Shown here piece by piece: positions 43,503 to 60,841 of a stretch of 64,000 nt of DNA; positions within the stretch are counted from its first letter, which is position 1, and each line of letters opens with the position of its first letter. Made by a program: the position numbers and the translations under genes. Source of the stretch: Lachnospiraceae bacterium G41 (GTDB taxonomy: Bacteria; Bacillota; Clostridia; Lachnospirales; Lachnospiraceae); contig FNEU01000001.1 of the NCBI GenBank assembly GCA_900100245.1, positions 434,001 to 498,000 on the forward strand, in the 5' to 3' direction. A model generated the notes under the pieces. That model was not told the DNA's origin. It saw only the letters and a list, made by a program, of their open reading frames with translations, and did not search any database.

Positions 43503-46500
43503 TTATGCATTTTCGTCCTTTTTATCTTCGGACGTATTTTTATCTTTTGCTTCTGCTTTTGACTCTTCGTCCTGTTTCTTGTGGATGTTGTTGATATCAT
43601 CCATTGATCCGCCGCCTGTGTCTTTAGGATCTTTGAACTTGCCTTTTTCAACGAGTCTTAAGAAAGCATCTACAACATCTTCGGTAAGTTGAGTGCCTGA
43701 TACATCTTTTATGATGGATACGACCTTTTCAAAATTCATACGATTTCTGTAAGGTCTGTTTGAATACATTGCATCAAAGGTATCGGCAACTGCAATAATC
43801 TGTGCTGCTCTCGGAATCTCGTCACCATTTAATCCGTCGGGATAGCCTCTTCCGTCGGGTCTTTCATGATGCGATCTCGCACCGGTTGCAAGTTCAGGCA
43901 TAATACTGATGTCTTTTAAAACGTTATAGCCCTGAATCGAATGGGACTTGATAAGTGTAAATTCTTCGTCCGTAAGTTTGCCGTTTTTGTTAAGCACTTC
44001 CGGCTTGATACCGATTTTGCCGATATCGTGCAAAAGTGCGATATTGTAATACTTCTCAACAGTATCTTCATCACATCCGAGTTCTTCGGCGAGCATTGCG
44101 GTATACTCCGCAACTCTCGTGGAATGACCTTTGGTATAGCGGTCCTTCATATCGATGGTTCGCGCGATTGCTTCGGTCATCTCTTTGACGAACAGTTTGT
44201 TTTCTTCCTGTTTCTTTAAGTAATTCTGTGTCTTTTTGTGAACCGCAAATACGATCACTTCGTAGAGTATAAACGCAAATACTACTGCGATCAGCACATA
44301 GAAAAGAAGTGTTTCGTGGAAAGCCTTTTGCTTTACTATCGTTATCGAATACTCATTTTCGCCGGGATTTAAGGCATCATCGAGTTTCATTACGAAAGTG
44401 TATGTCTTACCGCGAAGGTTGGTATATGTAACGGACTCAAAATCCGATGTCGGCACCGTTCTTGAGTCTTTATCAAATCCTTCGAGATAATACGTTACCT
44501 GAGGATTCATCAGCGAATACGTATAAACATATCCGAAAATGGTAACTCTGTCCGTATGCGGAGGAATTGTAATTACTCCATTTTCGTCGGGATAGATATC
44601 AACTCCGTCGGCATCCACAAAAGGAACCGACATTTTAATATCTACCACATCCGCAAAATCTCTTTCGATATTAACCTTTGATACGCCTGTCGAACCGGCT
44701 ACGTACAAATCTCCGCTCTCTGTCAGTTCACTGTAGGAGTTGGCAGTCGCAACGCTTGATAATCCGTTGAAAATACTGAAGTATGTAGGATATATTTCCT
44801 CGTTGGCCAAAAGGTCGTCTACTCTTACAACATAAATGCCGTTGCTGGCTATTACCCACATTTCGCCCTTGCTGTTTTCAACCATGTCAAAGTTGTTTGA
44901 GTAAGGGAAATTCTTTATCGTAACAACCTCAAAATCAGCAGTCATATATGCTATCGAGTTGCTGGACACTATCCAGTAAAGATTTCTTTCAACATCTTTT
45001 TTGATACGAAGAACAACCATTGAGGAAAGTCCTTCCTTAAGACCTATGCCTTCGATATTGTTGCCTCTTTTAACATAAATACCGCCACCGTCAGTGCCCA
45101 TTACAACTTCGCCGTTTAAGCCTTCGACAACCGTTAATACTTCGGGATTGCCGAGTCCGGAACTTGTATCGATTACCTCTTTGACTACGCTGCTGTTTTT
45201 CTCTATAATGGCAACGCCTTCGGAGCAGGCTGCATATATCTTCTTGTCATCGCCTTCGTAAATTGCTCTTGTCTTGTTCGAAGGCATACCGACCGACACA
45301 TTGTAGGAGGTGATGTTTCCATCGTCGTATTTTAGAAGGCCGAAATTACTGTAGGTCGAAATCCAGAGAATATCTTCGCTGTCTTTTATGATTGATCTTA
45401 TTCTGACGTTTTCCAAAAGTTCCAAGAGGTTTCTGGTATTCTTAGGATCCATTTCCTCCGTTATGTTGGTCTTTTGTTTGATTGGAACAAGTTCAGCCTT
45501 TCCGCCGCCTTCAAGTGCGATGAGACCGTCGTCGGTTCCGAGCATAAGATATGATTTATAACGTGATGTGGTATTAACTACTTCTTCTTCAAGTCCGTAT
45601 TTTGCAAAAATATCTGTAAAACGGTTGCGGACGATTTTCATTACGCCCTGTCTGGAGGATGCAAACCAGAGGTTTCCTTCGTAGTCGGTAATCATCTGGT
45701 CAATCGAATTGTTCATCGGAATGCTGTAAATCTGCCTGAATCCCGCACTGTCGTGAACGCCGATACCATTGTCTGCGCAGACCCAGAGTTTTCCGTCCAA
45801 GAATTCGAGGGAGTTTATTTTTTTAAGAGTATCTGTGGTTATTTCCTTGGCATTTTCCCAATTGCCGTTTAATTCACCATAAAAGATACTCGAGTTATCC
45901 GTTCCGATGTACACATATCCGGGGTTTAAAGGATCCGGCAAAATAGTATTGGGATCTTCTATCTTTAACTTGTTTGCATCATAATATGCAGTGACTTTGC
46001 AGTTTTGAATCGTAAATACTTCGCCTTCCTGGGTGATGCCGTAAATAATTCCGGTATTGTCGTCCATACGAAGTTCATGAATAAACGAATCGTTTATGTT
46101 ATGCGAATCGAGTCTGTAAAGATTGCCGTATGTATCAACTATCTCTACGCCGTGTGTGGTGGCTATGAGAATATTGCCTGCCTTGTCTTCGGTAATACAT
46201 CTGATGGAAAGCGACTGTGACGAATGGATATCCTTGAAATATTTGTACTCGCCTTTTTCAAGCACCGCCGTTCCGTTGTCGTTCGTTCCGATCCACAAAC
46301 GGTTTTTGCTGTCGACATAAAGAGCCGTAATACTCGAAATACCGTCGGTTGAATCCATTCTTTCGAATGTATTGCCGTCATATCTGATAAGACCCGAATA
46401 ACTTCCGATCCAGATAAATCCTTCGGCGGTTTCGGCTATCGCATTTGCCTCCGATGTTGGAAGACCGTTGCTGTTATTGTAAAGGAATGCAGAATAGCCT

Positions 46501-46697
46501 TCGTTTTGTCCTGAAAATTCAACATTTACTTCGTCATAATCCGTTCCCGAAACGGTTTCCGCAGAAACATTTTTGTCAAGGAAAATAACTGCAAATGAAA
46601 ACGTCAGAACAAATAAAAGGACCAGACTAAAGAGTCTTTTAGCCCGTCCCATTATAAGCAGACGTTTTTCAAAAGAAAAACGATAAATACTTTTCAT
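43503..46697 (-). CDS. Beta-propeller sensor with HD-GYP c-di-GMP phosphodiesterase output
   Basis: A 1064-residue protein. A signal/anchor (about 17-45) is followed by two-component-regulator-type propeller repeats (WIGSYSGLIRYDG, LWIGTNDNG and similar) to about residue 690, a Y_Y_Y-like beta domain (to about 790), a span (798-820) and a cytoplasmic HD-GYP domain with His858, HDIGK (His890, Asp891), SHH and RGYPDG (Gly951-Tyr952-Pro953). The end is a charged tail. HD-GYP enzymes degrade cyclic di-GMP. The outer part matches the glycan sensors of Bacteroides hybrid two-component systems. A strong promoter precedes it and the cellulase follows. Confidence 0.9.
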   Translation of the reverse strand: MKSIYRFSFEKRLLIMGRAKRLFSLVLLFVLTFSFAVIFLDKNVSAETVSGTDYDEVNVEFSGQNEGYSAFLYNNSNGLPTSEANAIAETAEGFIWIGSYSGLIRYDGNTFERMDSTDGISSITALYVDSKNRLWIGTNDNGTAVLEKGEYKYFKDIHSSQSLSIRCITEDKAGNILIATTHGVEIVDTYGNLYRLDSHNINDSFIHELRMDDNTGIIYGITQEGEVFTIQNCKVTAYYDANKLKIEDPNTILPDPLNPGYVYIGTDNSSIFYGELNGNWENAKEITTDTLKKINSLEFLDGKLWVCADNGIGVHDSAGFRQIYSIPMNNSIDQMITDYEGNLWFASSRQGVMKIVRNRFTDIFAKYGLEEEVVNTTSRYKSYLMLGTDDGLIALEGGGKAELVPIKQKTNITEEMDPKNTRNLLELLENVRIRSIIKDSEDILWISTYSNFGLLKYDDGNITSYNVSVGMPSNKTRAIYEGDDKKIYAACSEGVAIIEKNSSVVKEVIDTSSGLGNPEVLTVVEGLNGEVVMGTDGGGIYVKRGNNIEGIGLKEGLSSMVVLRIKKDVERNLYWIVSSNSIAYMTADFEVVTIKNFPYSNNFDMVENSKGEMWVIASNGIYVVRVDDLLANEEIYPTYFSIFNGLSSVATANSYSELTESGDLYVAGSTGVSKVNIERDFADVVDIKMSVPFVDADGVDIYPDENGVITIPPHTDRVTIFGYVYTYSLMNPQVTYYLEGFDKDSRTVPTSDFESVTYTNLRGKTYTFVMKLDDALNPGENEYSITIVKQKAFHETLLFYVLIAVVFAFILYEVIVFAVHKKTQNYLKKQEENKLFVKEMTEAIARTIDMKDRYTKGHSTRVAEYTAMLAEELGCDEDTVEKYYNIALLHDIGKIGIKPEVLNKNGKLTDEEFTLIKSHSIQGYNVLKDISIMPELATGARSHHERPDGRGYPDGLNGDEIPRAAQIIAVADTFDAMYSNRPYRNRMNFEKVVSIIKDVSGTQLTEDVVDAFLRLVEKGKFKDPKDTGGGSMDDINNIHKKQDEESKAEAKDKNTSEDKKDENA

Positions 46698-46759
46698 AAC
46701 ATTCCCCTCTTAATATCACAATTACATGATCTTCCATAATCATAATAATTCAACTAAAT

Positions 46760-46788
46760 ATTATACTATAAGGGAGTGTATTTTTCAA
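46760..46788 (-). promoter_or_regulatory. Strong promoter of the sensor-cellulase operon
   Basis: TTGAAA (46783-46788) and TATAAT (46760-46765) on the minus strand with a 17-base spacer, 62 bases before the ATG at 46697. Confidence 0.85.
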
Positions 46789-46806
46789 TTAAAAGACCTT
46801 GCAAAA

Positions 46807-47463
46807 CTAGTCTAAATTACTCTCGAAAAAGGCCCTTACTTCGTGCAAATTAACGAATATTTTATGGCAGAGTTTGCTTATCTCTTCATTCGGCTCAATC
46901 ATATCGGGAACCATCAGCGGTTTTGCCCCTGCGGCATACGCTGCTTTTATACCGTTTAAAGAGTCTTCGATAATAAAAGATTTGGTCGAATCGACACCGA
47001 GTTTATCTGCTGCTTCAAGGAAAATCTCGGGGTCGGGTTTTGATTTGGTAACCATGTCTCCGCCTATTACAACATCAAAGTATTCAAGTATTCCCGCATC
47101 CCTAAGCTGATTGGTGACAGTTTTGACATTGGTAGATGAGGCAAGTGCGGTTTTTATGTTGTTTTCTTTCAGGAAACTTAAAAGTTCATTTACGCCGGGT
47201 TTCTTCGGAAGCTTTCCGCCTCCACAAAGTGCGGTATACCTTTCGGAAATGACTTTCTTGTACTCTTCGTAAGGGCAGTCTTCACCATACGTCTCATAAA
47301 AGAGTTTCTCGGTAGCCTTCTCATTGATACCGATGCATTTTATAATCAGCTCATCCATACCCTTCATGTTATTCTCTTTTGCAAAATCTATCCACAGGTC
47401 ACAAACGATTCTCTCCGAATCGAATATGACTCCGTCCATATCAAATATTACTGAATCTATCAT
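46807..47463 (-). CDS. HAD-family sugar-phosphatase or phosphoglucomutase-like protein
   Basis: A 218-residue HAD hydrolase of the beta-phosphoglucomutase/GPP group: the catalytic DMDGV loop (FDMDGVIFDSE, about 6-16), ASSTN (motif II), Lys in the KSKPDPEIF block and the acidic EDSLNGIKAA block. The substrate is a sugar or polyol phosphate but cannot be named. The ATG at 47463 has AAGGAGG before it. That site lies directly against a REP-like palindrome (47476-47504), whose reading adds 14 spurious codons to the longest ORF. Confidence 0.9.
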   Translation of the reverse strand: MIDSVIFDMDGVIFDSERIVCDLWIDFAKENNMKGMDELIIKCIGINEKATEKLFYETYGEDCPYEEYKKVISERYTALCGGGKLPKKPGVNELLSFLKENNIKTALASSTNVKTVTNQLRDAGILEYFDVVIGGDMVTKSKPDPEIFLEAADKLGVDSTKSFIIEDSLNGIKAAYAAGAKPLMVPDMIEPNEEISKLCHKIFVNLHEVRAFFESNLD

Positions 47464-47475
47464 TTTGCCTCCTTT

Positions 47476-47504
47476 TGACACTGGGGGACGGGGGTGTAGT
47501 GTCA
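47476..47504. repeat. REP-like palindrome, copy A
   Basis: A 29-base element with TGACACT and AGTGTCA arms around G-rich runs. It is identical to copy B at 48001-48029, in the same orientation. It lies between the tyrosine phosphatase and the HAD gene, 13 bases before the HAD start. Confidence 0.85.
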
Positions 47505-47545
47505 TTTTTCCCCCAATTTGGCACGAAAAATAGTTAAATTGCGAT

Positions 47546-48043
47546 TTAACTTTTAGCCTTTATCTCGTTAAGCAGGCCCTCACAACCCTCTTTGATTTGT
47601 CTGTATGCAGTTACGAAGTCTCCGGTGTACCAGGGGTCCGCAATCTGCTTTCCGGGCGTTGAAGAATAGTCCATACAGAGCGAAATCTTATCATCCTTTC
47701 CGTTAAAGAACCTGTCACGCATGATACGATGGTGGATATCTTCCATCGCAATTATGTAGTCAAACTTATCGTAATCGTCTCTTCTTACCTGTCTTGCTCT
47801 GTGTCCCGAACAGTCGATTCCGTGTCTTCCTAACTCATCTCTCGCAGGCGGATATACAGGGTTACCCAGTTCCTCCGTCGAAGTAGCTGCAGATTCAATA
47901 TAAAACTTGTCTGCCAACCCCTCTTTTTTTACCATATCCTTAAAAATATACTCTGCCATGGGAGATCGACAGATGTTGCCCCAGCACACGAATAAAATTT
48001 TGACACTGGGGGACGGGGGTGTAGTGTCATTTTTTCCAAACAT
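47546..48043 (-). CDS. Low-molecular-weight protein-tyrosine phosphatase
   Basis: A 165-residue phosphatase with the CX5R loop (Cys20-Arg26, CWGNICRS) and the general-acid region IADPWYTGDF. Family members usually begin just before this loop. Here a 13-residue leader (MFGKNDTTPPSPS) is encoded by the REP-like palindrome copy B, so an insertion has remade the start. AGAGG lies about 10 bases before the ATG. Such enzymes act on tyrosine phosphates, for instance in polysaccharide export control, but no such kinase is near. It is bracketed by two direct REP copies. Confidence 0.9.
   Translation of the reverse strand: MFGKNDTTPPSPSVKILFVCWGNICRSPMAEYIFKDMVKKEGLADKFYIESAATSTEELGNPVYPPARDELGRHGIDCSGHRARQVRRDDYDKFDYIIAMEDIHHRIMRDRFFNGKDDKISLCMDYSSTPGKQIADPWYTGDFVTAYRQIKEGCEGLLNEIKAKS
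48001..48029. repeat. REP-like palindrome, copy B (within the phosphatase 5' end)
   Basis: Identical to copy A and in the same orientation. It is translated as part of the phosphatase leader (NDTTPPSPSV). Copies A and B enclose the phosphatase gene. Confidence 0.85.
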
Positions 48044-48079
48044 ATTGTTTTTCCTCTCAAATGCTTTATAATCTATATT

Positions 48080-48128
48080 AGTTTCTTTTAGAATCTTTTG
48101 TCCAAAAGAGTTTCTTTTAGGATCTTTT
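48080..48128. repeat. Short direct repeat
   Basis: A 20-base unit (AGTTTCTTTTAGAATCTTTT) at 48080-48099 recurs with one change at 48109-48128. It lies in the gap between the phosphatase and the transposase remnant. Confidence 0.6.
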
Positions 48129-48175
48129 CAAAATTATTTCCCGTAAAAAATTTTTATATTCATAGGAGATATATT

Positions 48176-48268
48176 ATGCCAAGAAAGCCTCGCGTTATCA
48201 GTTCAACCGGCATATATCATATCATACTTCGCTCCGTAAATCAGCATATTAAAAAGAGGAATCATTGA
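48176..48268 (+). pseudogene. N-terminal remnant of a REP-associated (Y1) transposase
   Basis: An AGGAG site and ATG lead into 30 codons that begin MPRKPRVISSTGIYHIILRS, the typical start of REP-associated tyrosine transposases (IS200-like Y1 family, normally 200-300 residues). The frame ends in the hairpin at 48252-48280; the HUH motif and catalytic Tyr are missing. The deletion has joined the fragment to the terminator of the surface-protein gene. It lies 150 bp from REP copy B, which fits its having been the source of those repeats. Confidence 0.75.
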
Positions 48269-48280
48269 GATTCCTCTTTT
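48252..48280 (-). terminator. Intrinsic terminator of the surface-protein gene
   Basis: AAAAGAGGAATC and GATTCCTCTTTT form a perfect 12-bp stem with a 5-base loop, and T-runs lie on both sides. It is 52 bases after the stop of the surface-protein gene on the minus strand and may work in both directions. Confidence 0.85.
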
Positions 48281-48331
48281 CATTATGCTATATATTCATA
48301 AATTCTTATTTGCGTTCATCAAATCAGTATT

Positions 48332-51300
48332 TTATTTTTTTCTGGTTGCCATGTAAATACTGAATCCAACTCCGCCTGCAACAGCCGTACCCAATGCGAC
48401 TGCGCCTAAAGCAATCCACATCCAATTTACACTCTTTCCAGAATCAGCCACTTCGATAGCATCTGCAGGTGCTGACTGATCATTTACAATAACAGTCGCT
48501 TCGGCAGTGTCTCTGTTATCATTTTCAGCTACTTTGTTATCGCCGGGTTCTTCAGTAAGTAATGCTACCTTATGTTCTTCTTTATCAACACTATCATCAT
48601 CTGCGTTTTCTGCTTCTAATCCACCGTCGTTGCCAACACCTGATTCGATAATGACATTTCTGCCGCCTGCATTTACGATATCTGCTTTATCATCAGCTAC
48701 AATGCCCTCGTTAGCAACACCACTGTTAACATTATCATTAGTTCTTACGTTATTGTTTGCATTTGCATTGCTGTTAACATTGGCATTATTATTTACCTTA
48801 GCTTTGTCATCTTTAGTATCGTCTTCGGCTTTTTTGTTGGGTTCGTCCGGTACATTAGAATTATTGTTCTGATTATTGTTATTCTCTTCGTTCTCTAAAG
48901 CCGTAATCTTCTTTTGGTACTCCTTATCAACAGTAACCAGCTTCTTAAGAAGAGTATCTCTCTTGTCCTGGGCTTTTTTTAGAGCTTCTTTTGAAGCCTC
49001 AAGGCTGGCTGTATATTCATCGAGTTTATTGATAGTATCAACCTTACTTTCAAAAGCTGCTATTTCTCCTCTGAGAGTTCTAATCTCCGACTGAGCGGTT
49101 TTAATCGCTTCCTGACTATTTCCTGCTTTTGTTGAAAGTTCAAAATACAAATCTAAAATTTTTCTAGAAGAATCAACCTTATTACGGAAATCATCATTTT
49201 TAGAAGCATCAACCTTATTACGGAAATCATCATTTTTAGAAGCATCAACCGTAACACTCTTCGAAGCCCCTCCCTGTTTCCCATCTGTAGTATAGTGGTT
49301 ATATGAGTTATCAGGATCATTCTTGTCATCATACTCCACAAGAAGCACATTACCACTGTACCAGTTATCATTTCTGAGCTGAATTGTAGATGTTGCTTTT
49401 GCGGAATCATATATAGTCGTGGAAATTGTATATGTATATGTATCTGTAACTGTGCCGGTACATTGTGTATTGACTGTGGTCGTGCTTATCAGATATTCCA
49501 GAGCCTTATAGCCATATTTCGAAGCCTCTTCGTTTTCATCTTTGTCAAGTTCAAATCCGGTTAAATCTGCGGTATCACCAATCTTGTAAACCTTTGCATT
49601 TTCATCATCACCAATCGTTATTGTTTGATTAGCTTCAAGTTCATCTATCTTATCCTGCACCGCATTAATATACGCAGTTTTTGCAGCTTCTTCGGATTCA
49701 AGTGTTGCTGACTTTGCATCAATACTGCCATTACTATTCAAAGGTAAAGATACTCCTGTATAGGTCGTTACGGTAACATCTTTAGTAACAGTCTTTACCA
49801 TTTTACCCGTTTGAGAATCAACCTTATACGAAACTGCCTCTTCACCGACAACTACATCATTCTTTGATTCGCCATCGCCAAGCGAAAGACCTTCAACCTC
49901 TTCAACTTCATCTTCCGGAATTTCTTCGCCATCGATGGTATTTCCATCGGTATATTTAACATAATTGTCGTCAACCTTGACATATACAGCACCATCATAA
50001 TCAACATAGTATCCGTTTGCTTCAATGGCATCAACGGAAGCCTGAGCAAAATCCACACCATCAAAAACTATATGTGGAGTCTTCTCAAAAATAACAATAC
50101 CATTATAATTATCCGAATTCAGGTTATTTTCATCCGAAGTCTTTAATTCTATATAAATAGTTTTATATTCTTCAGTACCATCCGCATGTTTAACAGTATA
50201 ATTAACCCTTCCGTAATCCAGAGTATCTCCTATATCGTTCGTGTAAGTGTTTCCGTTTTCGTCGGTATATGTGATACTATTATTTCCGTTTTCACCTGAA
50301 TAAAATTTCCATGCCTTATAAAAATTTTCAAATGAGGTATCCATCTCTGCGCTTTGAACACCTTCTTGATTACCAAGAACATCAGGAACATAATAAAACT
50401 TCATAATAGCCCATGCGAGTTTGATATAATCTTTTCTCTCTTTTTCGGTTTTAGTTTTTAGTTCTCTCTCCAAATAAGCTATATAACCGTATCCTGCTGT
50501 ATTGTAACTTTCAAGTGCATCATCAGTAGCTTGTTTAAGTTCTTTTGCCTCATCAGCTATCCTCTGCAACTCTGCATCGGCAGCCTCTGCCTCTGAGTCC
50601 GCCTGATCCTTCAAGTAATTAAATCTTTCCTGAGCCGCTTTGAGTTCAGTTAACTTATCATCATATGCTTTCTTGGTAACTTTATAATTCTCTTCGTTTT
50701 CAATGAACTTCTTTTCAATTTCAGTTAACTCTTTGGCTTTTTCGTTAACTATTTTATCAGCTTCATCACATGCATTCTTAGCGTCCTGTTTGAACTTATC
50801 CGCATCTTCCTTGCTAGTGGAATTCTTGATATTATCAATTGCTTCATCGACCGCATCACCTGCTTTATTAACAAAATCAACTAAAGAAATAGTGTTAACG
50901 CTCTCCCCGGATTCTGACTTTTCGTCAACCTCAAGAAGCCCTTCAGCTTTCTTTTCAAGACCATCAGCTATTTCAACATATCCATCAACATGATTTCCTT
51001 CATTATCCTCGTAACCATTGATCTTGTATGTATCATCATTTGCAGCTGCCACGTTTCCTGAAACAAGAGTATTCTCCTCTTCCATAAGACTGACAGCATC
51101 CTTGACATCCTTCATTGCTTCCTTAGCATCTTCAAGTTCAGGATTATTATCATCAAAGTATTCCACAGATCTGTACTCATATTCAGCCTCATGATGAACA
51201 ACTTCCGCCGGATGAACTACTTCCTCTGTATCATCGTAGATCTCGTCCCCATTTTCATCAATACGAAGATTTATTTTAACGGTTTCTGTCCACTCTTCTC

Positions 51301-51649
51301 TGATTGTTTCATCCCAAGCAGGTCTTACTTCAACTTTTACAAGTCTCCTATGCTGATTTTCCTGTAAAGAATCATTCCAATCTCTATCGTAAAGTTCATT
51401 ATCAAGATTGTCTGCAGCTTGAGTTATCGTATCAATCGATAAACCAACTTTATCTGCCTCTTCTTTTAAATTCTTTGCGGCTTCAACCGCCTCATTGACC
51501 GTTCCAATAGCGGAGTCTACACTGCTACCGACAGTATCAGTATTCACATTCTCCGCATATGCGGTAAGATACAATGATCCAAACGTTGCCACTGCGAAAG
51601 CACCGATTATAATTGTCTTTATAATCTTTTCGATGAAAAATTTACTCAT
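48332..51649 (-). CDS. Large coiled-coil surface protein, membrane anchored
   Basis: A 1105-residue secreted protein. A signal peptide ends near AYAEN (about 33). Long helical stretches rich in Glu, Lys and Ala (about 250-400 and 870-960) suggest coiled coil; between them is a Thr/Tyr-rich beta region. A tandem repeat (ASKNDDFRNKVD, two and a half copies) lies near 810-840. An Asn-rich stretch and an acidic linker lead to a C-terminal span and Arg-Lys-Lys. No LPxTG is present, so the span is the anchor. Adhesion or wall spacing is inferred. AAAGGG precedes the ATG. Confidence 0.75.
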   Translation of the reverse strand: MSKFFIEKIIKTIIIGAFAVATFGSLYLTAYAENVNTDTVGSSVDSAIGTVNEAVEAAKNLKEEADKVGLSIDTITQAADNLDNELYDRDWNDSLQENQHRRLVKVEVRPAWDETIREEWTETVKINLRIDENGDEIYDDTEEVVHPAEVVHHEAEYEYRSVEYFDDNNPELEDAKEAMKDVKDAVSLMEEENTLVSGNVAAANDDTYKINGYEDNEGNHVDGYVEIADGLEKKAEGLLEVDEKSESGESVNTISLVDFVNKAGDAVDEAIDNIKNSTSKEDADKFKQDAKNACDEADKIVNEKAKELTEIEKKFIENEENYKVTKKAYDDKLTELKAAQERFNYLKDQADSEAEAADAELQRIADEAKELKQATDDALESYNTAGYGYIAYLERELKTKTEKERKDYIKLAWAIMKFYYVPDVLGNQEGVQSAEMDTSFENFYKAWKFYSGENGNNSITYTDENGNTYTNDIGDTLDYGRVNYTVKHADGTEEYKTIYIELKTSDENNLNSDNYNGIVIFEKTPHIVFDGVDFAQASVDAIEANGYYVDYDGAVYVKVDDNYVKYTDGNTIDGEEIPEDEVEEVEGLSLGDGESKNDVVVGEEAVSYKVDSQTGKMVKTVTKDVTVTTYTGVSLPLNSNGSIDAKSATLESEEAAKTAYINAVQDKIDELEANQTITIGDDENAKVYKIGDTADLTGFELDKDENEEASKYGYKALEYLISTTTVNTQCTGTVTDTYTYTISTTIYDSAKATSTIQLRNDNWYSGNVLLVEYDDKNDPDNSYNHYTTDGKQGGASKSVTVDASKNDDFRNKVDASKNDDFRNKVDSSRKILDLYFELSTKAGNSQEAIKTAQSEIRTLRGEIAAFESKVDTINKLDEYTASLEASKEALKKAQDKRDTLLKKLVTVDKEYQKKITALENEENNNNQNNNSNVPDEPNKKAEDDTKDDKAKVNNNANVNSNANANNNVRTNDNVNSGVANEGIVADDKADIVNAGGRNVIIESGVGNDGGLEAENADDDSVDKEEHKVALLTEEPGDNKVAENDNRDTAEATVIVNDQSAPADAIEVADSGKSVNWMWIALGAVALGTAVAGGVGFSIYMATRKK
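49165..49250. repeat. 36-bp tandem repeat within the surface-protein gene
   Basis: Two full units (49165-49200 and 49201-49236) differ at one base, and a third partial unit ends at 49250. Each encodes 12 residues (ASKNDDFRNKVD). The near identity points to recent duplication. Confidence 0.85.
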
Positions 51650-51709
51650 ATATCCCTTTGCATTTCTCGCCGAATTTTTTCGGTTTTCCTATAATATCCC
51701 TTGTTATTT

Positions 51710-51724
51710 GGTGTAATCTACACC
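51710..51724. promoter_or_regulatory. Palindrome upstream of the surface-protein gene
   Basis: GGTGTA-ATC-TACACC, a perfect 6-base inverted repeat, lies 61 bases before the start codon and overlaps a weak -35 region. It may be an operator for an unidentified regulator. Confidence 0.4.
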
Positions 51725-51822
51725 TAATCAATTATATTCTTCCATGCAAACACTTTCAACATAAAAATAGCTTTGCCGGTATGGTTTTTCCATATCAAAT
51801 CATATGTGTTTTTTCTCAAAAA

Positions 51823-52815
51823 CTAGATGTATTTTCTGATAAACTCCTCAATATGATCAAACGGAATTACATTAATATTATCATAAAGGTCCGTATGAAC
51901 CGCATCAGGAATTATCATGAGTTCCTTATTGTCGGTATACTTGCTGTCTTTAATCATATTTGCATATGCATCCTTCGAGAAATAACATGAATGCGCCTTT
52001 TCGCCGTGAACAAGTATAACCGCACTTCTGATCTCATTCGAGTATTTAAGTATAGGCTGGTTCATAAAAGATTCGCACCCGATCACATTCCATCCCTCGT
52101 TGGAATTAAGAGATCTTGCATGATATGCTCGGCCTTTGTAGTATTCGCTGTAATCTTTAACGAAGAAAGGTGCATCTTCGTCAACAGGCAGAGGCAGACA
52201 GCCTCCGGCGCGCTTATAGGAACCGTTCTTTAAATCTTCCAGACGCTGTATAGCAAGAGCTTTCTTTTTCTCATAGCGTTTTTCTTCGGAATCTTCGGAA
52301 TCAAAATATCCGTTGGCATTTACTCTGGTCATGTCATACATGGTTGAAGCCACGGTTACTTTAATACGAGGATCAAGTGCAGCCGTGTTAATTGCCATTC
52401 CGCCCCAGCCGCAGATTCCGATGATTCCGATATGCTCGGCATCCACCCTGTCATTCAGGCTCAGGAAATCGACTGCTGCCATAAAATCTTCCGTATTGAT
52501 ATCCGGAGATGCCATGTATCTCGGCTCTCCGCCGCTTTCGCCCGTAAAAGAAGGGTCAAACGCGATTGTTAAAAATCCTCTTTCTGCCATATTCTGTGCA
52601 TAAAGGCCCGAGCACTGTTCCTTAACCGCACCAAAAGGCCCAGAAACCGCAATCGCGGGAAGCTTGCCTTCGGCGTTCTTGGGAACATACATATCTGCCG
52701 CAAGAGTAATACCATATCTGTTAATGAATGTCACTTTGCTGTGTTCAACCTTATCGCTTTTGGGAAATGTCTTATCCCATTCTGTTACCAATGTAAGTTC
52801 TTCTTTTTGTATCAT
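51823..52815 (-). CDS. Alpha/beta-hydrolase (dienelactone-hydrolase-like)
   Basis: A 330-residue cytosolic hydrolase. It has the block PAIAVSGPFGAVKEQ (oxyanion side), the nucleophile position GICGWGG (Cys or the following residue rather than Ser, as in dienelactone hydrolases), and a C-terminal AVHTDLYD His. In Firmicutes such proteins accompany flavin reductases under LysR control. GGAGG precedes the ATG. It is the last gene of the LysR-divergent operon. The substrate is unknown. Confidence 0.8.
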   Translation of the reverse strand: MIQKEELTLVTEWDKTFPKSDKVEHSKVTFINRYGITLAADMYVPKNAEGKLPAIAVSGPFGAVKEQCSGLYAQNMAERGFLTIAFDPSFTGESGGEPRYMASPDINTEDFMAAVDFLSLNDRVDAEHIGIIGICGWGGMAINTAALDPRIKVTVASTMYDMTRVNANGYFDSEDSEEKRYEKKKALAIQRLEDLKNGSYKRAGGCLPLPVDEDAPFFVKDYSEYYKGRAYHARSLNSNEGWNVIGCESFMNQPILKYSNEIRSAVILVHGEKAHSCYFSKDAYANMIKDSKYTDNKELMIIPDAVHTDLYDNINVIPFDHIEEFIRKYI

Positions 52816-52899
52816 TTGTTTTCCTCCGTGTACTTTTCTTTATTTGCTAATGCTTTCCTGCATTCTTTTATGTCAACACTTTTTATCTGCAGATTGTAA

Positions 52900-53439
52900 T
52901 TAAACATTTTTGCCCATATCATATGCTTCTTTTAATGCTTTATGACCTTTAATTTCTCCCTGTTCGTTCACACCGCCTGCAAATACTTTTCCTTTGAATT
53001 CTGCTTTTTCAAAACAATCTACCCAGCCCTGAACACCGCCGGCTGCCTTTTCATCTACATAATCTTCATCTTCTGCAGCCACAGATAAAAGGTAAACATC
53101 TCTGAACTTGTAATCTCTGGGATAGAGCGAATTGGCTCTGTCAATCATCGTTTTCATCTGTCCGCTCATCTCGTAATAATATATGGGTGTGGACCAAACT
53201 ACTGCCTCTGCCTCAAGGATCTTTTCCGTAATTTCGTTTGCATCATCTTTGATTACACAATGACCTGCTCTTAGGCATCCGAAACAACCCGTACAAAATG
53301 CGATTTTCTTCCCCTTCAAAGATACAATCTCAACTTCGTTGCCCGCATCCTTTGTTCCTCTGGCAAACTCTTCTGCCAATGCATCCGAATTGCTCCTTGC
53401 TCTCAAACTTGTTTCAATAACCAATACTTTCTTTGCCAT
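52900..53439 (-). CDS. Flavodoxin-fold NADPH-dependent FMN reductase
   Basis: A 179-residue flavoprotein with the FMN site TSLRARSNSDALAEEF at the start and the loop STPIYYYEMSGQMKTMIDR. A Cys-rich insert (CTGCFGCLRAGHC) is like that of iron-sulfur flavoproteins and may carry a cluster or redox Cys. AGGAGG precedes the ATG. It lies 8 bp after the cyclophilin-like lipoprotein gene. It probably reduces quinones or azo compounds, as in other LysR-flavodoxin operons. Confidence 0.9.
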   Translation of the reverse strand: MAKKVLVIETSLRARSNSDALAEEFARGTKDAGNEVEIVSLKGKKIAFCTGCFGCLRAGHCVIKDDANEITEKILEAEAVVWSTPIYYYEMSGQMKTMIDRANSLYPRDYKFRDVYLLSVAAEDEDYVDEKAAGGVQGWVDCFEKAEFKGKVFAGGVNEQGEIKGHKALKEAYDMGKNV

Positions 53440-53447
53440 ACTTCCTC

Positions 53448-54044
53448 CTATTCCATACTCAATGTAATTGTTACATCTCCATTGCCAAGTAAATTTTCCA
53501 ATTCTTCATCCGAAAGATTTATCTTTCCAAGTCTCGTATAAGACCATGAATTGCTGCCGTAAAAAACAACCAGCTGATTACCTGAATATAAAACTATGTC
53601 TCCGGGTTCGGTGGTGGTTTGTTTATCATTTCTGGTTACGCTTTGCCCGATTGAACCAACCTGTTCAAACCCTCCGTACATCGACATCTGTATCAAAAGA
53701 TTCTTCTTGGCAAGTTCTTTTAACTCTCTTACCGAATCGTTGTCTTCCCATGAAACATCGACTTTTGTGTCACCTATTGTCATTATCATATTTGCATCCT
53801 TTTCAAAATCATTTGAATCGTTCATTACAATTGTCTGCTTTTGATCGTCTGTTTCATCATCAGAACTTTTTGTCTCTTCTTTTTGTTTAATTATATCTGT
53901 ATTAGATTCAGCCGAACCATTATCAGTAATTTCCGTCTTGCTCAACTCTTCATAAACATCTTGCGAAGATAGATTACAAGCAGCAAGTACGAAAACCAAC
54001 AAAGACATTGTAATAATACCCATCACTTTTTTTTGTCCAATCAT
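53448..54044 (-). CDS. Lipoprotein with cyclophilin-like fold
   Basis: A 198-residue protein with a lipoprotein signal (LAAC lipobox, Cys23), an acidic linker to about 75, then a cyclophilin-like domain (MTIGDTKVDVSWEDNDSVRELKEL start; GDIVLYSGNQLVVFYG centre). This fold usually accompanies flavodoxin and LysR genes in clostridia; its activity is not established. The Shine-Dalgarno GGGGG overlaps the preceding stop codon. Confidence 0.8.
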   Translation of the reverse strand: MIGQKKVMGIITMSLLVFVLAACNLSSQDVYEELSKTEITDNGSAESNTDIIKQKEETKSSDDETDDQKQTIVMNDSNDFEKDANMIMTIGDTKVDVSWEDNDSVRELKELAKKNLLIQMSMYGGFEQVGSIGQSVTRNDKQTTTEPGDIVLYSGNQLVVFYGSNSWSYTRLGKINLSDEELENLLGNGDVTITLSME

Positions 54045-54049
54045 CTTTT

Positions 54050-54283
54050 TCAGCCCCCGATATTCTTTACTGCTTCTTTCTCCGCGCTCCTAATAATCAA
54101 ATCAATTTTGTCGACTTTTCGCTGGCTTTCATGCATTTCATCCACAAGAGTGCATCTGCATTTTTTCAGGCACTTTATCAAATCTTCCATCTGACCGCTT
54201 TCGTATAATTTTTTTGCTTTGTCTTCATCTTTACACTCACATCCGAGAGTTGAAAGATCTTCTATCATTTCTTTTAAAAGCAT
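54050..54283 (-). CDS. Small Cys-rich helical protein
   Basis: A 77-residue cytosolic protein with four Cys (CECKDED near 14-16 and KCLKKCRC near 38-43) and a charged helical end (SQRKVDKIDLIIRSAEKE). The ATG at 54283 is chosen because GAGG precedes it; the longer frame runs into the LysR operators. It is the first gene of the operon divergent from LysR. Similar small proteins stand next to such regulators in clostridia, but no function is known to me. Confidence 0.7.
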   Translation of the reverse strand: MLLKEMIEDLSTLGCECKDEDKAKKLYESGQMEDLIKCLKKCRCTLVDEMHESQRKVDKIDLIIRSAEKEAVKNIGG

Positions 54284-54325
54284 TCGAAACACCTCGTAAA
54301 TGCATCTTTTTCTCTTCTGATTACA

Positions 54326-54409
54326 AGTATACGGGATTGACATGAATTGCGCTAATGAATAAAATGAATATCGTGATATTCCATTATGGCATATCACATT
54401 ATCGATGTG
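54326..54409 (-). promoter_or_regulatory. LysR-type operator region and promoter of the flavodoxin operon
   Basis: TATACT (54326-54331, minus strand) has no good -35, as at activated promoters. GAATATC-GT-GATATTC (54366-54381) lies about 50-65 bases before the expected start, and CACAT-N5-ATGTG (54395-54409) lies further up, near the divergent lysR. Both fit the T-N11-A rule for LysR sites. Confidence 0.6.
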
Positions 54410-54461
54410 CTTTACATTTTTTATATCTGAAAAAAATATTCCTGCCAACGGAGGATTGAAT

Positions 54462-55334
54462 ATGGAGATAAAAAACTTACGCTACTTCCTTGCAGTAGCA
54501 AGAGAAGAAAATATGTCACACGCGGCCGAAATGATGCATGTAACCCAGCCGACTCTTTCCAAGGCACTCAAGGCACTCGAAGAAGAACTGGGAAAGAAAC
54601 TTTTTACCAGGCACAGTTTTTCAATAAAACTCACCGATGAAGGCATGCTTTTAAGAGACCGTGCAGAAGACCTTGTTGCAATGGCAGATAAAATAGAACA
54701 GGAATTTGTTTCCCTTGATGACATTACCGGAGGGGATATTTATTTTGGTCTTGCGGAATCATATCAGATAAGACTGCTCGCACGCGAAATAAAGAAATTA
54801 AAAGATAAATATCCTTCTTTTACATATCACATTACAAGCGGCGATACAGAACAGGTAACGGAAAAGCTTGATAAAGGATTACTTGATTTTGCAGTTATAT
54901 GCGATCCGCCCAATACCGAAAAATATGAATATCTTACTTTTCCCGATTACGACAGATGGGGTGTTGTTATGCTAAATACACATCCTCTTGCAAAGAAAAA
55001 AAGCATTAAAGTCTCCGATCTTTACGGCCAGCCGCTTTACTGCTCCGAACAAAGCTGGAATTACGAGATTAAAGAATGGGCTGGCGAACATCATCCCTTG
55101 CTTCACCTTGAAGGCTCATTCAGACTTTCTTACAATGCTTCAATGTTTGCAAAGGAAGGACTTGGGCTCCTTCTTACTTTTGAACATTTAATCGATTGTT
55201 CAAAAGAAAGCGATCTTGTATTCAGACCGCTTTCTCCCAAACAAATAACAAAACTGTATTTAATCTGGAACAAGTACCAGACTTTTACTCCGATTGCGGA
55301 GAAGTTTCTCTCACAGGTGCGTGAGTCTTTTTGA
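54462..55334 (+). CDS. LysR-family transcriptional regulator
   Basis: A 290-residue regulator with a typical N-terminal HTH (LRYFLAVAREENMSHAAEMMHVTQPTLSKALKALEEEL) and a substrate-binding domain after residue 90. The ATG at 54462 has GGAGG 7 bases before it; the longer frame would start among the operators. It is divergent from the flavodoxin/hydrolase operon and probably activates it. It ends 20 bp from the convergent ABC permease. Confidence 0.92.
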   Translation: MEIKNLRYFLAVAREENMSHAAEMMHVTQPTLSKALKALEEELGKKLFTRHSFSIKLTDEGMLLRDRAEDLVAMADKIEQEFVSLDDITGGDIYFGLAESYQIRLLAREIKKLKDKYPSFTYHITSGDTEQVTEKLDKGLLDFAVICDPPNTEKYEYLTFPDYDRWGVVMLNTHPLAKKKSIKVSDLYGQPLYCSEQSWNYEIKEWAGEHHPLLHLEGSFRLSYNASMFAKEGLGLLLTFEHLIDCSKESDLVFRPLSPKQITKLYLIWNKYQTFTPIAEKFLSQVRESF

Positions 55335-55353
55335 CGAACTCATAAAAGAAATA

Positions 55354-58300
55354 TTATTCTCTGTTTTTAAGCACTTCGTTCTCACTTATCCTTCCGAGTT
55401 TCTTCATAAGGATAAAATTGATTATCTCATAAAGTATCATTATTGCTCCGAATATGCAAAGATACATATACCATGTAAATTCCAGATGCATGGAACATGC
55501 AACATTTGCAATAAATGTAGGGAAAAGCATATCTATCAGCAGTTTCGATACCGGTACGCCTATTAACGCACCAATCATTATAACGACCCTGTTTCCGTCA
55601 AGATAAAGTTTTTTAACTTCTCCGCTTCTGTATCCGAGAATTTTTAAAAGAGATATTCCCTGGGTGGCACGGTCAATCATTACCGACATCATCAGATACA
55701 TCACGATGCAGAAAATAACTATCGACATTCCGATTAACATCGTGGACATTGGCATCATCAGTTTTAAGAATATTTTGGAAGCTTTATCGATATCCGCCTT
55801 GGAAGTTACAGAGTATAATCTTCCTTCCTCTATATCGAGTTTTTCGTCCGAAAGAACCACATTGTAATAATCATCTTCTTCACCAAAGAGTTCTCTCATA
55901 CTGTCTATATCCATGAATACCGTGATTCCCACGGAATAAGGAACGACATCTTCTATCGTAAAAGCATAATCGATATCTTCAGCATTGTCCGTAAAGACTA
56001 TTTTTTCTCCCTTTTTAACGTGATATCTCTGAACTACCGCATCGGACGCGACCACTTTGTTTTTGCCTTTTACGGGCTTTGCTTTGTAATACGGATTGTC
56101 ATCGTCGATTCCTATAACGGTGATATCGAGATTGTACCCATACTGTTCTCTTTTAAGAGTTTTGATAAAACATGCCTCACCGCCCTCGGGTACTTCCTTG
56201 GTCGGGTATTTGTAGGTATACATATAGTTATATGTTGTATCCTCACTGTTCAGTCTTCCGACACTTTCACATAAAACATAGCAGTCCATTCCGAGCATGA
56301 ATACCAAAAGCGAAATGGCCATTCCGAAAATAACCGTAACTGCCGTTCTGCTTTCTCGCAAAATCTGTCTTATTCTGTATTTTGAAACAAAAGACATTTT
56401 GCCGAGTTTAATATCTTTTCCGCCGCTTATTTTCTGCTCGTTTCTTAAAAGAGAAAGAGCCGTTCTCGAAAGGCTTTTGTTTATTACAAGGAAATTAACA
56501 ATCGCCGCAACCGCCGCAGGCATTAACACCGAATAAAATACAAGGTATAAAGGTGCTATCGCCGGCATGTCGGGTATGGAAAAATAGTTGTAACAGTCAG
56601 CCATCTGCCATTTGCATCCAAACTTGCTCATTCCGGCCAAACCGCCTGCCGTACCGCCTATCAAAGCCACCATTGTAGGGATAAATATATAATGCAGAAT
56701 CAAATCGCTTTTTCTTGCGCCAAGCGCATACAGCGCACCGATTACGCTGCTTTCACTCTGAATCTGATGTATTACAAATACCGAAAGCACGTATGTCAAA
56801 AGCACGATAACGATTACACCCGCATACAGTCCGACGGTTTTGTCTATTACAACATCTCCCGCGGCTCCACCGACTCTATTATTTTCAGCTGAGGTCATAA
56901 ATGCCGTTATATTGTCCGGAGCCTCGGAAAAAATTTTATCCATCATTTCATCCGACTGTTCCTTTAAATCCTTCACGCCGTCTTTTAGTTCTTTTACGCC
57001 GTCTTTTAATTCGCCGGCTCCATCCATCATTTCGCCTGCGCCGTCATCAAGTTCGCCGGACGCATCATAAGCCTCTTTTATCGCATCATTTAATTCTTCT
57101 GTTCCGTCGTATAAATCCTTGGCTCCGTTTTTCATTTTGCCGGTAGCTTCTTTAACTTTTCCGACACCGTCGTCTAAATCTTTGGCTCCGTTGGCAAGGC
57201 TTATTGCACCGTTTTCAAGCGAAGCCGCTCCCGATGCGGCTGATGCTTCCCCGTTTGACAATTCTCCCGCGCCCGAAGCTATAGATCCGACACCTGCGGT
57301 ATATCCTTCAACGCCCGAAACATACTGTGACACGCCGTCTAACGAAGCCTTCGCGTTATAAACGTCTGTCGCATCCATGCCAAAGCTTTCAAGCATCGCC
57401 GCAAACTTTGTGAGTTCCTCTGCATAATTATTTCTGTTTAAAGATAAAAGCGGAAGATTCGTCTGCATGGAAGCATTTATGCCGGTAATGCTTCGGTTAA
57501 TCGAATCCTGCGTATTTTTAACAAGTCCGTCAAAAATACTACCGGCTCCCTGATTTATGGCAGCACTGTTCTGATTCAATGTATCGGCCCCTGTTTTAAG
57601 AGAAGTTGCACCGTCTTTTAAAGTATTAAGACCTGTTTTTAAGGAAGCACTTCCGTCCTTAAGCGATATCGCACCGTCCTTAAGTTTCCCGCTTCCGTCT
57701 TTTAATTCACCGACACCTTTATCAAGTTCTTCTGCTCCGTCTTTGAATTCTTTTACACCGTCTAAAAGATCCTCGCTTCCGTCCGCAAGTTCCTTCAATC
57801 CTTCCTTAAAATCTTCGGTACCGTCTTTCAATTCGCCGACCCCGTCGAAAAGTTCCACCGTTCCGTCATACAGTTCGTCCACTCCGTCAACCAGATTGTT
57901 TATTCCGTCCGTGATTTCATCTCTTTTACCGTATGAATCGGCGAGCATTTCTTTGTAATAGGGATCATCGACCTGGTTGTAATCAAAATCAAAGTCCTTA
58001 ATCATCTGCTTTAATTCATCGCTTGTCATTGCACCGTTTAAAAGAAACGCATATGTTACATCTTCGGTCGCCGCACCTTCGTCGTTCTTTAATCTGTTAT
58101 AGTCCTCTGCACATACAAAAGCAGTTCCGAAAATACTCGAATCAATGCTTGTGTCGGAAAGCTTTCTGTAAGGCGCATCATAATCAACGCTGCTTCCGAT
58201 TCCGACTACGGTAAAATCTGTTCCGTCCACACGAATTTTGTCACCTACACCGATTTCATTTTCCGCGCAGTATCTGTTAAGTAAAACTATCTCTCCGCTT

Positions 58301-58662
58301 GTCTTGGCTTCACGGCCCTCGTCATAAACCACTAAATCGATTTTCTCTCTGTTTTCAAATATTCTTAAAACCGAGCCGTCTTCAAGTGTATAATCAAAAC
58401 TCCTATGCGATTCGACGGTGACGCCCTTTTCTTCGATCTTTCTTATCTCATCGTCCGTAAAAGGATTAAAAAGAGTTACCTGGCAGTCCTCAAGCTTTGC
58501 TTCTTTTTGAAGATCTTTCGTTCCTTCGATGAGCGAATATGCACTGTCTACAATTGCAACAACAAGAAACATACATACCGCAATAAGAATAAGCAGTGCC
58601 GCGTATCTGAAGAAGTTCTTTTTGATATCACGTAAATAACGTTTAAACAAAACCCTTTTCAT
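55354..58662 (-). CDS. FtsX-like ABC permease with long Gly-Asp heptad domain
   Basis: A 1102-residue permease. A first span (about 18-42) is followed by a MacB-like outer domain and two blocks of 7-residue repeats of the type G-x-x-x-L-x-D (about 249-385, sixteen units in a row, and about 470-590), as in YhgE/Pip proteins. Then come two sets of FtsX spans with LGARK and LGYRSGEVKKL motifs. Its ATG overlaps the TAA of the ATPase gene by one base, and GGAGG lies inside that gene. The pair is a TetR-controlled exporter or mechanotransmitter. Cargo is unknown. Confidence 0.88.
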   Translation of the reverse strand: MKRVLFKRYLRDIKKNFFRYAALLILIAVCMFLVVAIVDSAYSLIEGTKDLQKEAKLEDCQVTLFNPFTDDEIRKIEEKGVTVESHRSFDYTLEDGSVLRIFENREKIDLVVYDEGREAKTSGEIVLLNRYCAENEIGVGDKIRVDGTDFTVVGIGSSVDYDAPYRKLSDTSIDSSIFGTAFVCAEDYNRLKNDEGAATEDVTYAFLLNGAMTSDELKQMIKDFDFDYNQVDDPYYKEMLADSYGKRDEITDGINNLVDGVDELYDGTVELFDGVGELKDGTEDFKEGLKELADGSEDLLDGVKEFKDGAEELDKGVGELKDGSGKLKDGAISLKDGSASLKTGLNTLKDGATSLKTGADTLNQNSAAINQGAGSIFDGLVKNTQDSINRSITGINASMQTNLPLLSLNRNNYAEELTKFAAMLESFGMDATDVYNAKASLDGVSQYVSGVEGYTAGVGSIASGAGELSNGEASAASGAASLENGAISLANGAKDLDDGVGKVKEATGKMKNGAKDLYDGTEELNDAIKEAYDASGELDDGAGEMMDGAGELKDGVKELKDGVKDLKEQSDEMMDKIFSEAPDNITAFMTSAENNRVGGAAGDVVIDKTVGLYAGVIVIVLLTYVLSVFVIHQIQSESSVIGALYALGARKSDLILHYIFIPTMVALIGGTAGGLAGMSKFGCKWQMADCYNYFSIPDMPAIAPLYLVFYSVLMPAAVAAIVNFLVINKSLSRTALSLLRNEQKISGGKDIKLGKMSFVSKYRIRQILRESRTAVTVIFGMAISLLVFMLGMDCYVLCESVGRLNSEDTTYNYMYTYKYPTKEVPEGGEACFIKTLKREQYGYNLDITVIGIDDDNPYYKAKPVKGKNKVVASDAVVQRYHVKKGEKIVFTDNAEDIDYAFTIEDVVPYSVGITVFMDIDSMRELFGEEDDYYNVVLSDEKLDIEEGRLYSVTSKADIDKASKIFLKLMMPMSTMLIGMSIVIFCIVMYLMMSVMIDRATQGISLLKILGYRSGEVKKLYLDGNRVVIMIGALIGVPVSKLLIDMLFPTFIANVACSMHLEFTWYMYLCIFGAIMILYEIINFILMKKLGRISENEVLKNRE

Positions 58663-59363
58663 TACAGATCCTCCAGTTCGTTGGCACTAACTCTGTTCTC
58701 ATTAATATATTCGTTTTTTACAAGACCGTCTTTTAGGAAGATGACTTTGTGAACCATATTTTTAATTGAATTGTTATGAGTAACAATAACCATTGTTGTA
58801 TTGTATTTCTGATTAATCTGTTCAAGGAGCATAAGAATGTCTCTTGAGGTATTTGAGTCTAGCGCACCCGTAGGTTCGTCACAAAGAAGAAGTTTGGGAT
58901 TTTTTATGAGCGCTCTTGCGATAGCACATCTTTGATGCTGGCCACCGGAAAGCTGTGACGGAAACTTATTCTGATGTTCCGTAAGTCCCAAAACATCCAT
59001 CAGTTCATTCAAATCCAAAGGATTCTTGGTAAGATACTCGCATACCTGAATGTTTTCTTTTACCGTAAGATTCGGAACGAGATTGTAGAACTGAAAAATA
59101 AATCCGAGATTATCTCTTCTGTATTCAACCAGGTTTTTGCTTTTCATTCCGAATATTTCCGTTTTATCGACTATTATTGAGCCTGAGTCCATGGTATCCA
59201 GTCCTCCGATACAGTTTAAAAGAGTCGATTTGCCCGAACCCGAAGTTCCCTGTATTACGCACATCTGACCCTTTTCAACACCTGTCGAAACGCCTTTTAA
59301 AACCTGAACAAAACTTCCTCCTTCTCCGTAACTTTTCTTTACATTTCTCATTTCAAGATACAT
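58662..59363 (-). CDS. ABC transporter ATPase (LolD/MacB type)
   Basis: A 233-residue ATPase with Walker A GTSGSGKS, signature LSGGQHQR, Walker B LLLCDEPTGALDS and an H-loop VTHN. The ATG at 59363 has AGGAG before it; the 16 further codons of the longest frame extend into the operator region. It is translationally coupled to the large FtsX-like permease. Confidence 0.95.
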   Translation of the reverse strand: MYLEMRNVKKSYGEGGSFVQVLKGVSTGVEKGQMCVIQGTSGSGKSTLLNCIGGLDTMDSGSIIVDKTEIFGMKSKNLVEYRRDNLGFIFQFYNLVPNLTVKENIQVCEYLTKNPLDLNELMDVLGLTEHQNKFPSQLSGGQHQRCAIARALIKNPKLLLCDEPTGALDSNTSRDILMLLEQINQKYNTTMVIVTHNNSIKNMVHKVIFLKDGLVKNEYINENRVSANELEDL

Positions 59364-59400
59364 TGTTGCTCCTATCCGCCGTTGCACGGCTTTTACATTT

Positions 59401-59421
59401 TTACATAACATTGTTATGTAA
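59401..59421. promoter_or_regulatory. Probable TetR operator before the ABC pair
   Basis: TTACATAAC-N3-GTTATGTAA is a perfect inverted repeat 38 bases upstream of the ATPase start. Each half differs by one base from the core (GTTACGTAAC) of the palindrome before the tetR gene at 60151-60172. Confidence 0.65.
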
Positions 59422-59434
59422 ATGTTATTTTTTT

Positions 59435-59458
59435 ACCGCTTCCAAAAATGAAAGCGGT
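59435..59458. terminator. Hairpin after tetR
   Basis: ACCGCTT and AAGCGGT form a 7-bp stem with a 10-base loop, 20 bases after the tetR stop. The T-run follows it on the plus strand only, so its use as a tetR terminator is doubtful. Confidence 0.4.
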
Positions 59459-59477
59459 TTTAATCTCGTAAAAAATA

Positions 59478-60131: not shown

Positions 60132-60150
60132 GTCATTCCTCATAAAAAAT

Positions 60151-60172
60151 AACACCGTTACGTAACGATGTT
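60151..60172. promoter_or_regulatory. TetR autoregulatory operator
   Basis: A 22-base palindrome with core CGTTACGTAACG and one mismatch pair in the flanks. It directly abuts the -10 box of the tetR promoter and ends 20 bases before the start codon. Confidence 0.75.
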
Positions 60173-60201
60173 ATTTTAGTGTCCTATTTGAATTTTGTCA
60201 A
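60173..60201 (-). promoter_or_regulatory. tetR promoter
   Basis: Perfect TTGACA (60196-60201) and TAAAAT (60173-60178) on the minus strand with a 17-base spacer. Confidence 0.85.
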
Positions 60202-60216
60202 GCTTTTTTTGTACCG

Positions 60217-60297
60217 GGAAAAAATGACACATAACCCCCGTCCCCCAGTGTCAAAATATTGTTAGTATGCTGGGGCAATATCTGTCATTCGCCGATG
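60217..60297 (+). pseudogene. REP copy C with the decayed start of a second LMW tyrosine phosphatase
   Basis: The REP-like element (60225-60253) carries three changes from copies A and B. It is followed in frame by the phosphatase start: the plus strand reads GKNDT, a stop, then PPSPSVKILLVCWGNICHSPM, against GKNDTTPPSPSVKILFVCWGNICRSPM in the intact gene. By hand alignment 69 of 81 bases match 48039-47959. The frame then runs into the antisense of the DtxR-like gene. The P-loop Cys is kept but nothing follows, so this is a truncated copy. Confidence 0.8.
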
Positions 60298-60647: not shown

Positions 60648-60712
60648 AATTTCCCCTCTATCAATTCAGAAAACTAATTATTTTTTTATAATTTAATCAT
60701 CTATTTGTTTTT

Positions 60713-60730
60713 GGTTAGTCTTGTCTAACC
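60713..60730. promoter_or_regulatory. DtxR-type operator upstream of the regulator gene
   Basis: GGTTAGTC-TT-GTCTAACC has one mismatch pair and lies about 65 bases before the start codon, downstream of the promoter at 60744-60772. It shares GTTAGTC with the palindrome at 61434-61449. Confidence 0.65.
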
Positions 60731-60743
60731 GCTCTGCGTTTAA

Positions 60744-60772: not shown

Positions 60773-60783
60773 TTGCTTTTCAT

Positions 60784-60821: not shown

Positions 60822-60841
60822 CTTCGTGTTGTTAAACATCC

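Follow-up and report, generated by a model that had tools for sequence, protein, structure and literature searches.

The phosphatase locus and its three REP copies

The window analysed here is a 64,000-nt stretch of the Lachnospiraceae bacterium G41 genome. It carries on its minus strand an ORF for a low-molecular-weight tyrosine phosphatase (47546..48043; Pfam LMWPc, E 5.2e-36) followed by a HAD-type hydrolase gene (46807..47463). The likely start of the HAD gene is the ATG at 47461–47463, preceded by AAGGAGG; the mechanical ORF extends to 47505 and runs into copy A, a lone REP palindrome (47477..47503, plus strand) in the gap between the two genes. Copy B (48002..48028, plus strand) lies at the other end of the phosphatase, and copy C (60226..60252, minus strand) is a lone REP between a DtxR-type repressor gene and a TetR gene. 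As the initial annotation had stated, A and B are identical and in the same orientation, and B codes for the first residues of the phosphatase ORF on the minus strand. The shared palindrome is 27 nt long, and A and B are 98% alike across 40 nt. We found one phosphatase gene in this genome, plus a scrap of it at C.

The phosphatase appears to begin inside foreign DNA

Among unfused relatives with a readable start, the phosphatase opens with ATGAT(A/T)AA(A/G) in 15 of 16 cases and with ATGAAA in the remaining one. In our genome this native ATG is absent. The REP stops right at the third native codon (AAAATT), and the ATG of the ORF lies inside the element, 9 nt after GAGAGG, so that codons 1–14, MFGKNDTTPPSPSV (48002–48043), are in element DNA. 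No other ATG is present between the element ATG and the conserved part of the protein, and the only start-type codon between the element ATG and the catalytic Cys is a GTG directly before that Cys. On sequence grounds, the native start codon of the phosphatase thus appears lost, and the gene appears to begin now in the end of a decayed mobile element, with the ribosome probably initiating at the ATG of the element.

Copy B adjoins the remains of a RAYT element

Reading from B onward, we observed the REP, ATTTTTTCCAAACATATTGTTTTTCCTC, about 120 nt more, and then the first 25 codons of a REP-associated tyrosine transposase (RAYT), MPRKPRVISSTGIYHIILRSVNQHI (48176..48250, plus strand), which are 96% identical to the RAYTs of genomes G022 and G021 over 25 residues. 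The rest of the left end of the element spans 48029..48175 (plus strand). The initial annotation had not noticed that a transposase-element end with a transposase scrap extends from B to 48250. The same order and closely similar letters adjoin the REP before longer RAYT ORFs in G021 and G026; in G026 the stretch before the RAYT is longer than at B and the contig ends within the ORF. The RAYT ORF of G021 has 259 codons and palindromes on either side, and its protein just reached the cut-off of NCBIfam REP_Tyr_transpos (80 bits, cut-off 80) and matched Pfam Y1_Tnp with E 1.5e-12. This bears out the earlier assignment of the palindromes to a Y1 (HUH) transposase system. A Pfam search with the 25-codon scrap alone gave no Y1 hit. 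At our locus a REP is found on the left side of the scrap only, the right part of the element being gone. We assign B as the left-terminal REP of a decayed RAYT element.

Read outward (minus strand), the left end at B presents the GAGAGG, 9 nt and ATG described above. It also contains a weak promoter-like match in the outward direction, TGGACA-18-TAATAT (48104–48075); the kilobase examined has 5 such matches vs 2.9 expected, which is near the shuffle level.

Sequence searches found no second RAYT in our genome. Eight Y1_Tnp hits were considered as the RAYT and rejected: all are at contig ends (C3, C4, C8, C10, C13, C16, C17 and C21), and the two inspected by eye were IS200-type-like pieces. 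It is as if a multi-copy IS200-type element had broken the assembly at these points. The RAYT-REP mobile system seems extinct in this genome. When 31 genomes of the genus were searched with the scrap at E 0.1, eight matched including our own, the weakest at 46–60% identity. The repeat is present in G024 and G014, where the scrap had no RAYT match; the RAYT of G022 goes with a different palindrome, and the GACACTGGGGGACGGGG-type letter pattern is missing from that genome. At RAYT loci of other genera the palindrome letters vary by lineage, and a GCAA or CAATA motif is often retained ahead of the RAYT, with AAAATG at the palindrome.

The palindrome family within the genome and the genus

Our genome (2.59 Mb, 22 contigs) contains 39 copies of the half-site GACACTGGGGGACGGGG at up to two mismatches, 19 forward and 20 reverse, vs none of the reversed pattern used as a control. 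At least one half-site is present in 19 of the 31 genus genomes: 73 in G026, 21 in G024, 11 in G014, 8 each in G007 and G021, and mostly one or two in the others. The predicted hairpin is weak (DNA energies; best z −1.77, and +0.56 for one strand of A), and the GTAG-type tetranucleotide that canonical REPs have at the hairpin foot was not seen by eye as a constant feature of the REP copies displayed. Copy A is a REP separate from the element of B.

We compared the REP flanks of our genome with one another (41 rows including same-site pairs). The phosphatase start was seen only at B and C. REP copies end at their arms in most cases, most flank pairs sharing nothing at E 1e-3, and not in all: besides B and C, two paralogous large-gene pairs have homology that starts at the REP edge. 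The large-protein genes concerned are at L107 (12765–13111), L109 (11458–14851) and L111 (4087–4566), with one copy sitting between two inverted REPs. L109 and L111 form a further close pair (89%), and in L109 the start of the homology is not at a REP. Elsewhere in L107 an alpha/beta hydrolase ORF (9954–10949) starts with MKQRKNDTTPPSP, the letters of the phosphatase leader, apparently derived from a partial REP. At the place of copy A, the phosphatase-HAD gap, loci L054 and L056 carry a different, longer palindrome with GGGACGGTTCT-type arms.

Fused phosphatase starts recur in relatives

Among the matches listed for a leader-containing phosphatase query, whose 30 best rows over-represent fused starts, element-type starts were found on the same phosphatase in five genomes from four genera (our own, G017, G218, G322 and G034). 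G017 has MFGKNDTKTASGV at the same point, with the REP partly decayed. The start letters before the phosphatase in the other genera are MKYENGPQTPSHRT in G218, MNLKNEPLTPSRRT in G322 and MICENEPLTPSPRDQ in G034, and in G236 MNLKNGPLTPSPRT stands on a phosphatase-start scrap. The frame from the ATG into the phosphatase is open in all five genomes in which the phosphatase is uninterrupted. The RAYT beside the phosphatase is almost whole in G218 (residues 1–256, with one TGA in a longer match) and broken in our genome, G322 and G236; apart from weak hits, none was found beside the gene in G017 and G034.

On a tree of 44 phosphatase rows the five fused genes need five changes, at least four of them forced by well-supported branches, and they cluster no more than shuffled labels do (mean 4.8 changes). 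This scatter fits repeated gain and also an old gain followed by repeated loss. On this tree G012 and G014, both without the fused start, are placed between G000 and G017; inheritance of the start in G000 and G017 from one origin would therefore require losses.

Integrase elements at the same phosphatase start

Of the 48 phosphatase rows inspected, a set in which our own locus is counted twice and several contigs are too short to tell, 15 have an integrase-like ORF no more than 400 nt upstream. The two integrases tested, from L303 and G236, have Tn916 integrase DNA-binding and phage-integrase domains. In L303, L300, L311 and L316 the 130 upstream nt are identical, as are 14–15 of the next 15 nt; beyond these, L300, L311 and L316 are 38–62% identical to L303 in ungapped comparison. 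Phosphatase-start scraps were found upstream of the gene in L056, L057, L059 and L065. In G236 a scrap of RAYT, REP and phosphatase start precedes the phosphatase gene at a distance of about 11.4 kb, with some 10 kb between the scrap and the integrase; the element region is at about 5950–17900 of L325. From these sequences, the ends of Tn916-type integrase elements are predicted to replace the same phosphatase start as well. Because identical 130-nt ends stand before different gene bodies and start scraps are left on the far side, the start of this phosphatase looks like an attachment site of Tn916-type integrase elements.

RAYT left ends at the starts of other genes

The left ends of RAYT elements in other places also meet genes. 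A frame runs from the element ATG into a shikimate kinase (L163), an ACT-domain gene (L173), a radical-SAM gene (L222) and a lipoprotein-like gene with no Pfam hit (L180); in L163, L222 and L180 translation might instead begin at a GTG close to the native start. In L217 (no Pfam hit) and L218 an ATG at the edge of the palindrome begins an open frame, and in L219 the frame is open through the REP, without an ATG. In L216, L221, L224, L225, L227 and L228 the left-end frame stops before a gene with its own start, and the left ends of L174, L179, L182 and L233 do not face a gene start.

Left ends faced the 5′ end of a gene in 21 of 26 cases (two-sided p 0.0025 against one half), and in 19 of 23 (p 0.0026) when three doubtful rows were dropped, two of them for the reading and one doubtful. 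Right ends faced a 3′ end in 17 of 26 cases (p 0.17), or in 17 of 22 (p 0.017) after removal of four rows, all of which were against the reading. For both counts the neighbour classes were assigned by hand from ORF lists. Duplicates (L220, L223) and a near-copy of L177 (L225) were left out, L164, L176 and L226 were without a usable left flank, and L181, L230, L231 and L232 were counted as facing a gene start lying more than 100 nt away. The orientation bias of the left ends stands, and that of the right ends is weak. In the right flanks of L180, L217 and L218, ORFs finish in REP-like residues (WGRG, LGDG and LRGR), as if the right REP had supplied their last codons.

RAYT elements would accordingly be expected to insert in antisense orientation into the gaps between tandem genes, and the insertions that survive would be those in which the downstream gene still has a start. 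A more general proposal is that the left end of this family is a portable, outward-reading start module, made up of ribosome site, ATG and stop-free REP, that lands at the starts of operon genes and donates a start to them, the phosphatase start being a recurrent target of both RAYT and integrase elements. We put this forward tentatively, at slightly below even chances.

Copy C joins a REP to a scrap of the phosphatase start

Beside the REP at C lie codons K-I-L-L-V-C-W-G-N-I-C of the phosphatase start (60253..60286, plus strand), possibly reaching 60297 and overlapping the last codons of the repressor. C is inverted relative to B, with the phosphatase start following the REP in frame, and the similarity first reported, 69 of 81 nt (85%), was confirmed. 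The match takes in the greater part of the REP and 9 nt past it, and on the gene side 29 of 34 nt of the start. When the TTTT at the edge of the REP is set aside, C and B agree at 25 of 30 bases, a score reached by none of 200,000 composition shuffles (best 20), which rules out chance as its source. All five differences in the first 34 nt are at third codon positions (about 0.004 by simple arithmetic if positions were equally likely). The divergence of B and C therefore looks coding, C stemming from a diverged allele or B having been replaced since.

G021 has the same repressor-TetR pair, with a repressor 84% identical and neither a REP nor clear phosphatase letters between the genes, a difference that the initial annotation had not noticed. 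The possibility that C-like letters were already present there was dropped as too weak: the best match, 17 of 30, was equalled or bettered in 55 of 2,000 shuffles of that stretch. A TetR search for further C-like sites gave, among the matches listed outside our genome, sequences 39–57% identical, which were set aside.

Discussion

We consider it probable that a RAYT insertion gave the phosphatase a borrowed start, with A a separate REP and C most likely an illegitimate or template-switch copy. The order of events can be reconstructed from the sequence as follows. A RAYT element would have inserted antisense to the local genes at the phosphatase start codon, whereupon the native ATG was lost. 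The gene could have been rescued because the left end of the element, read outward, offers the ribosome-site-like GAGAGG, an ATG and a stop-free REP in frame; the phosphatase would then begin with MFGKNDTTPPSPSV. Later the transposase gene presumably decayed to 25 codons and the borrowed start persisted.

The initial annotation had instead taken A and B to bracket a phosphatase cassette moved by a Y1 transposase, with C a broken copy. The same-orientation copies around the gene suggest such a unit, as do the joining of REP and phosphatase start elsewhere at C and the two paralogous large-gene pairs with homology from REP edges. What decides against it is synteny: the phosphatase is followed by the HAD gene without this palindrome in 8 of the 19 relatives' loci with readable downstream DNA (start of the HAD-type gene judged by eye), and a GACAC-type REP is missing from the gap in all eight, two of which (L054 and L056) have the different palindrome there. 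Moreover, B is the end of a RAYT element and not a free cassette arm, C has only the first 34–45 nt of phosphatase letters, and the whole gene with both REPs was not found at a second place in the genome. We have therefore dropped the cassette as very improbable. That REP and gene start moved or were copied together fits C, where both are joined away from the gene; the mobilisation of a phosphatase cassette is not supported. The REP at the phosphatase start could also be incidental, translation beginning elsewhere and the leader never being made. The GTG at or near the native start in L180, L163 and L222 would allow this, the REP letters AAGG can resemble a ribosome site, and the available part of an earlier study judged many N-terminal REPs possibly or probably extragenic (PMC3733652). 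In our own gene, however, the only alternative, the GTG directly before the catalytic Cys, would remove the first strand, and all five genomes with the phosphatase have an open leader frame. We regard an incidental REP as unlikely.

According to the favoured reading, C would be a lone REP with 34 nt of phosphatase start that came from a junction like the one at B and reached its present locus most likely through illegitimate or template-switch copying. Transposition of the REP with its flank ranks next: as a true RAYT product, C would have formed when the transposase cut the junction of B outside the palindrome and moved the REP and flank. B and C share 34 nt on one side of the REP and 9 nt on the other, and this one-sided asymmetry recalls IS200/IS605 ends. 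Yet our genome contains no other REP pair with a short one-sided flank at E 1e-3 except the 28-nt pair L022/L039, and the repressor-side joint of C has a short similarity that fits illegitimate joining; we give this origin perhaps one chance in four. Still less probable, and a shade below the incidental REP in our estimate, is that C was left behind by an integrase element using the phosphatase start as its attachment site. The parting of the G236 scrap from the phosphatase by about 11.4 kb with a Tn916-type integrase shows an arrangement of this kind, and so do the upstream scraps in L056, L057, L059 and L065. C, however, continues in native phosphatase letters past the crossover inferred from L303-type loci, does not have the CACGGCAGGAT letters of the G236, L056, L057 and L059 scraps, and lies at a different gene pair; nor was an integrase noticed by eye in the ORFs listed for 44000–64000.

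If the borrowed start is real, a transposon family can strike the start codon of a gene without killing the gene, its end re-creating the start. This would explain the survival of such insertions in tightly packed operons and the appearance of new N-termini. One gene start rewritten by two unrelated kinds of mobile element in several genera also makes target choice testable. Our literature search for REPs with start codons or N-terminal extensions found no such description; since most subscription papers were outside the search, the evidence for the novelty of a start-donating REP end is weak.

RAYT-REP systems, or REPtrons, are described in the accessible parts of the literature as a Y1 transposase gene with REPs at its ends and many lone REPs, most REPs being placed downstream of genes (PMC2817692, PMC3733652, PMC6006769). 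The present system resembles them in its Y1 transposase kin, terminal REP palindromes and dispersed lone REPs; it differs in that neighbouring reading frames have their start in the left-end REP and in the head-to-head placement of the element and the gene starts. Rickettsia palindromic elements and intragenic REPs are, in the portion of PMC3733652 available, palindromes in frame within genes, N-termini included. Here, too, the palindrome is read in frame in a gene, at its N-terminus, but unlike the Rickettsia elements, which are inserts in a gene that keeps its own start, the element end supplies the ATG. Tn916-type integrase elements are similar in that an element end gives the same phosphatase a new start, and different in their enzyme, a site-specific tyrosine integrase, whereas the RAYT is a Y1/HUH enzyme.
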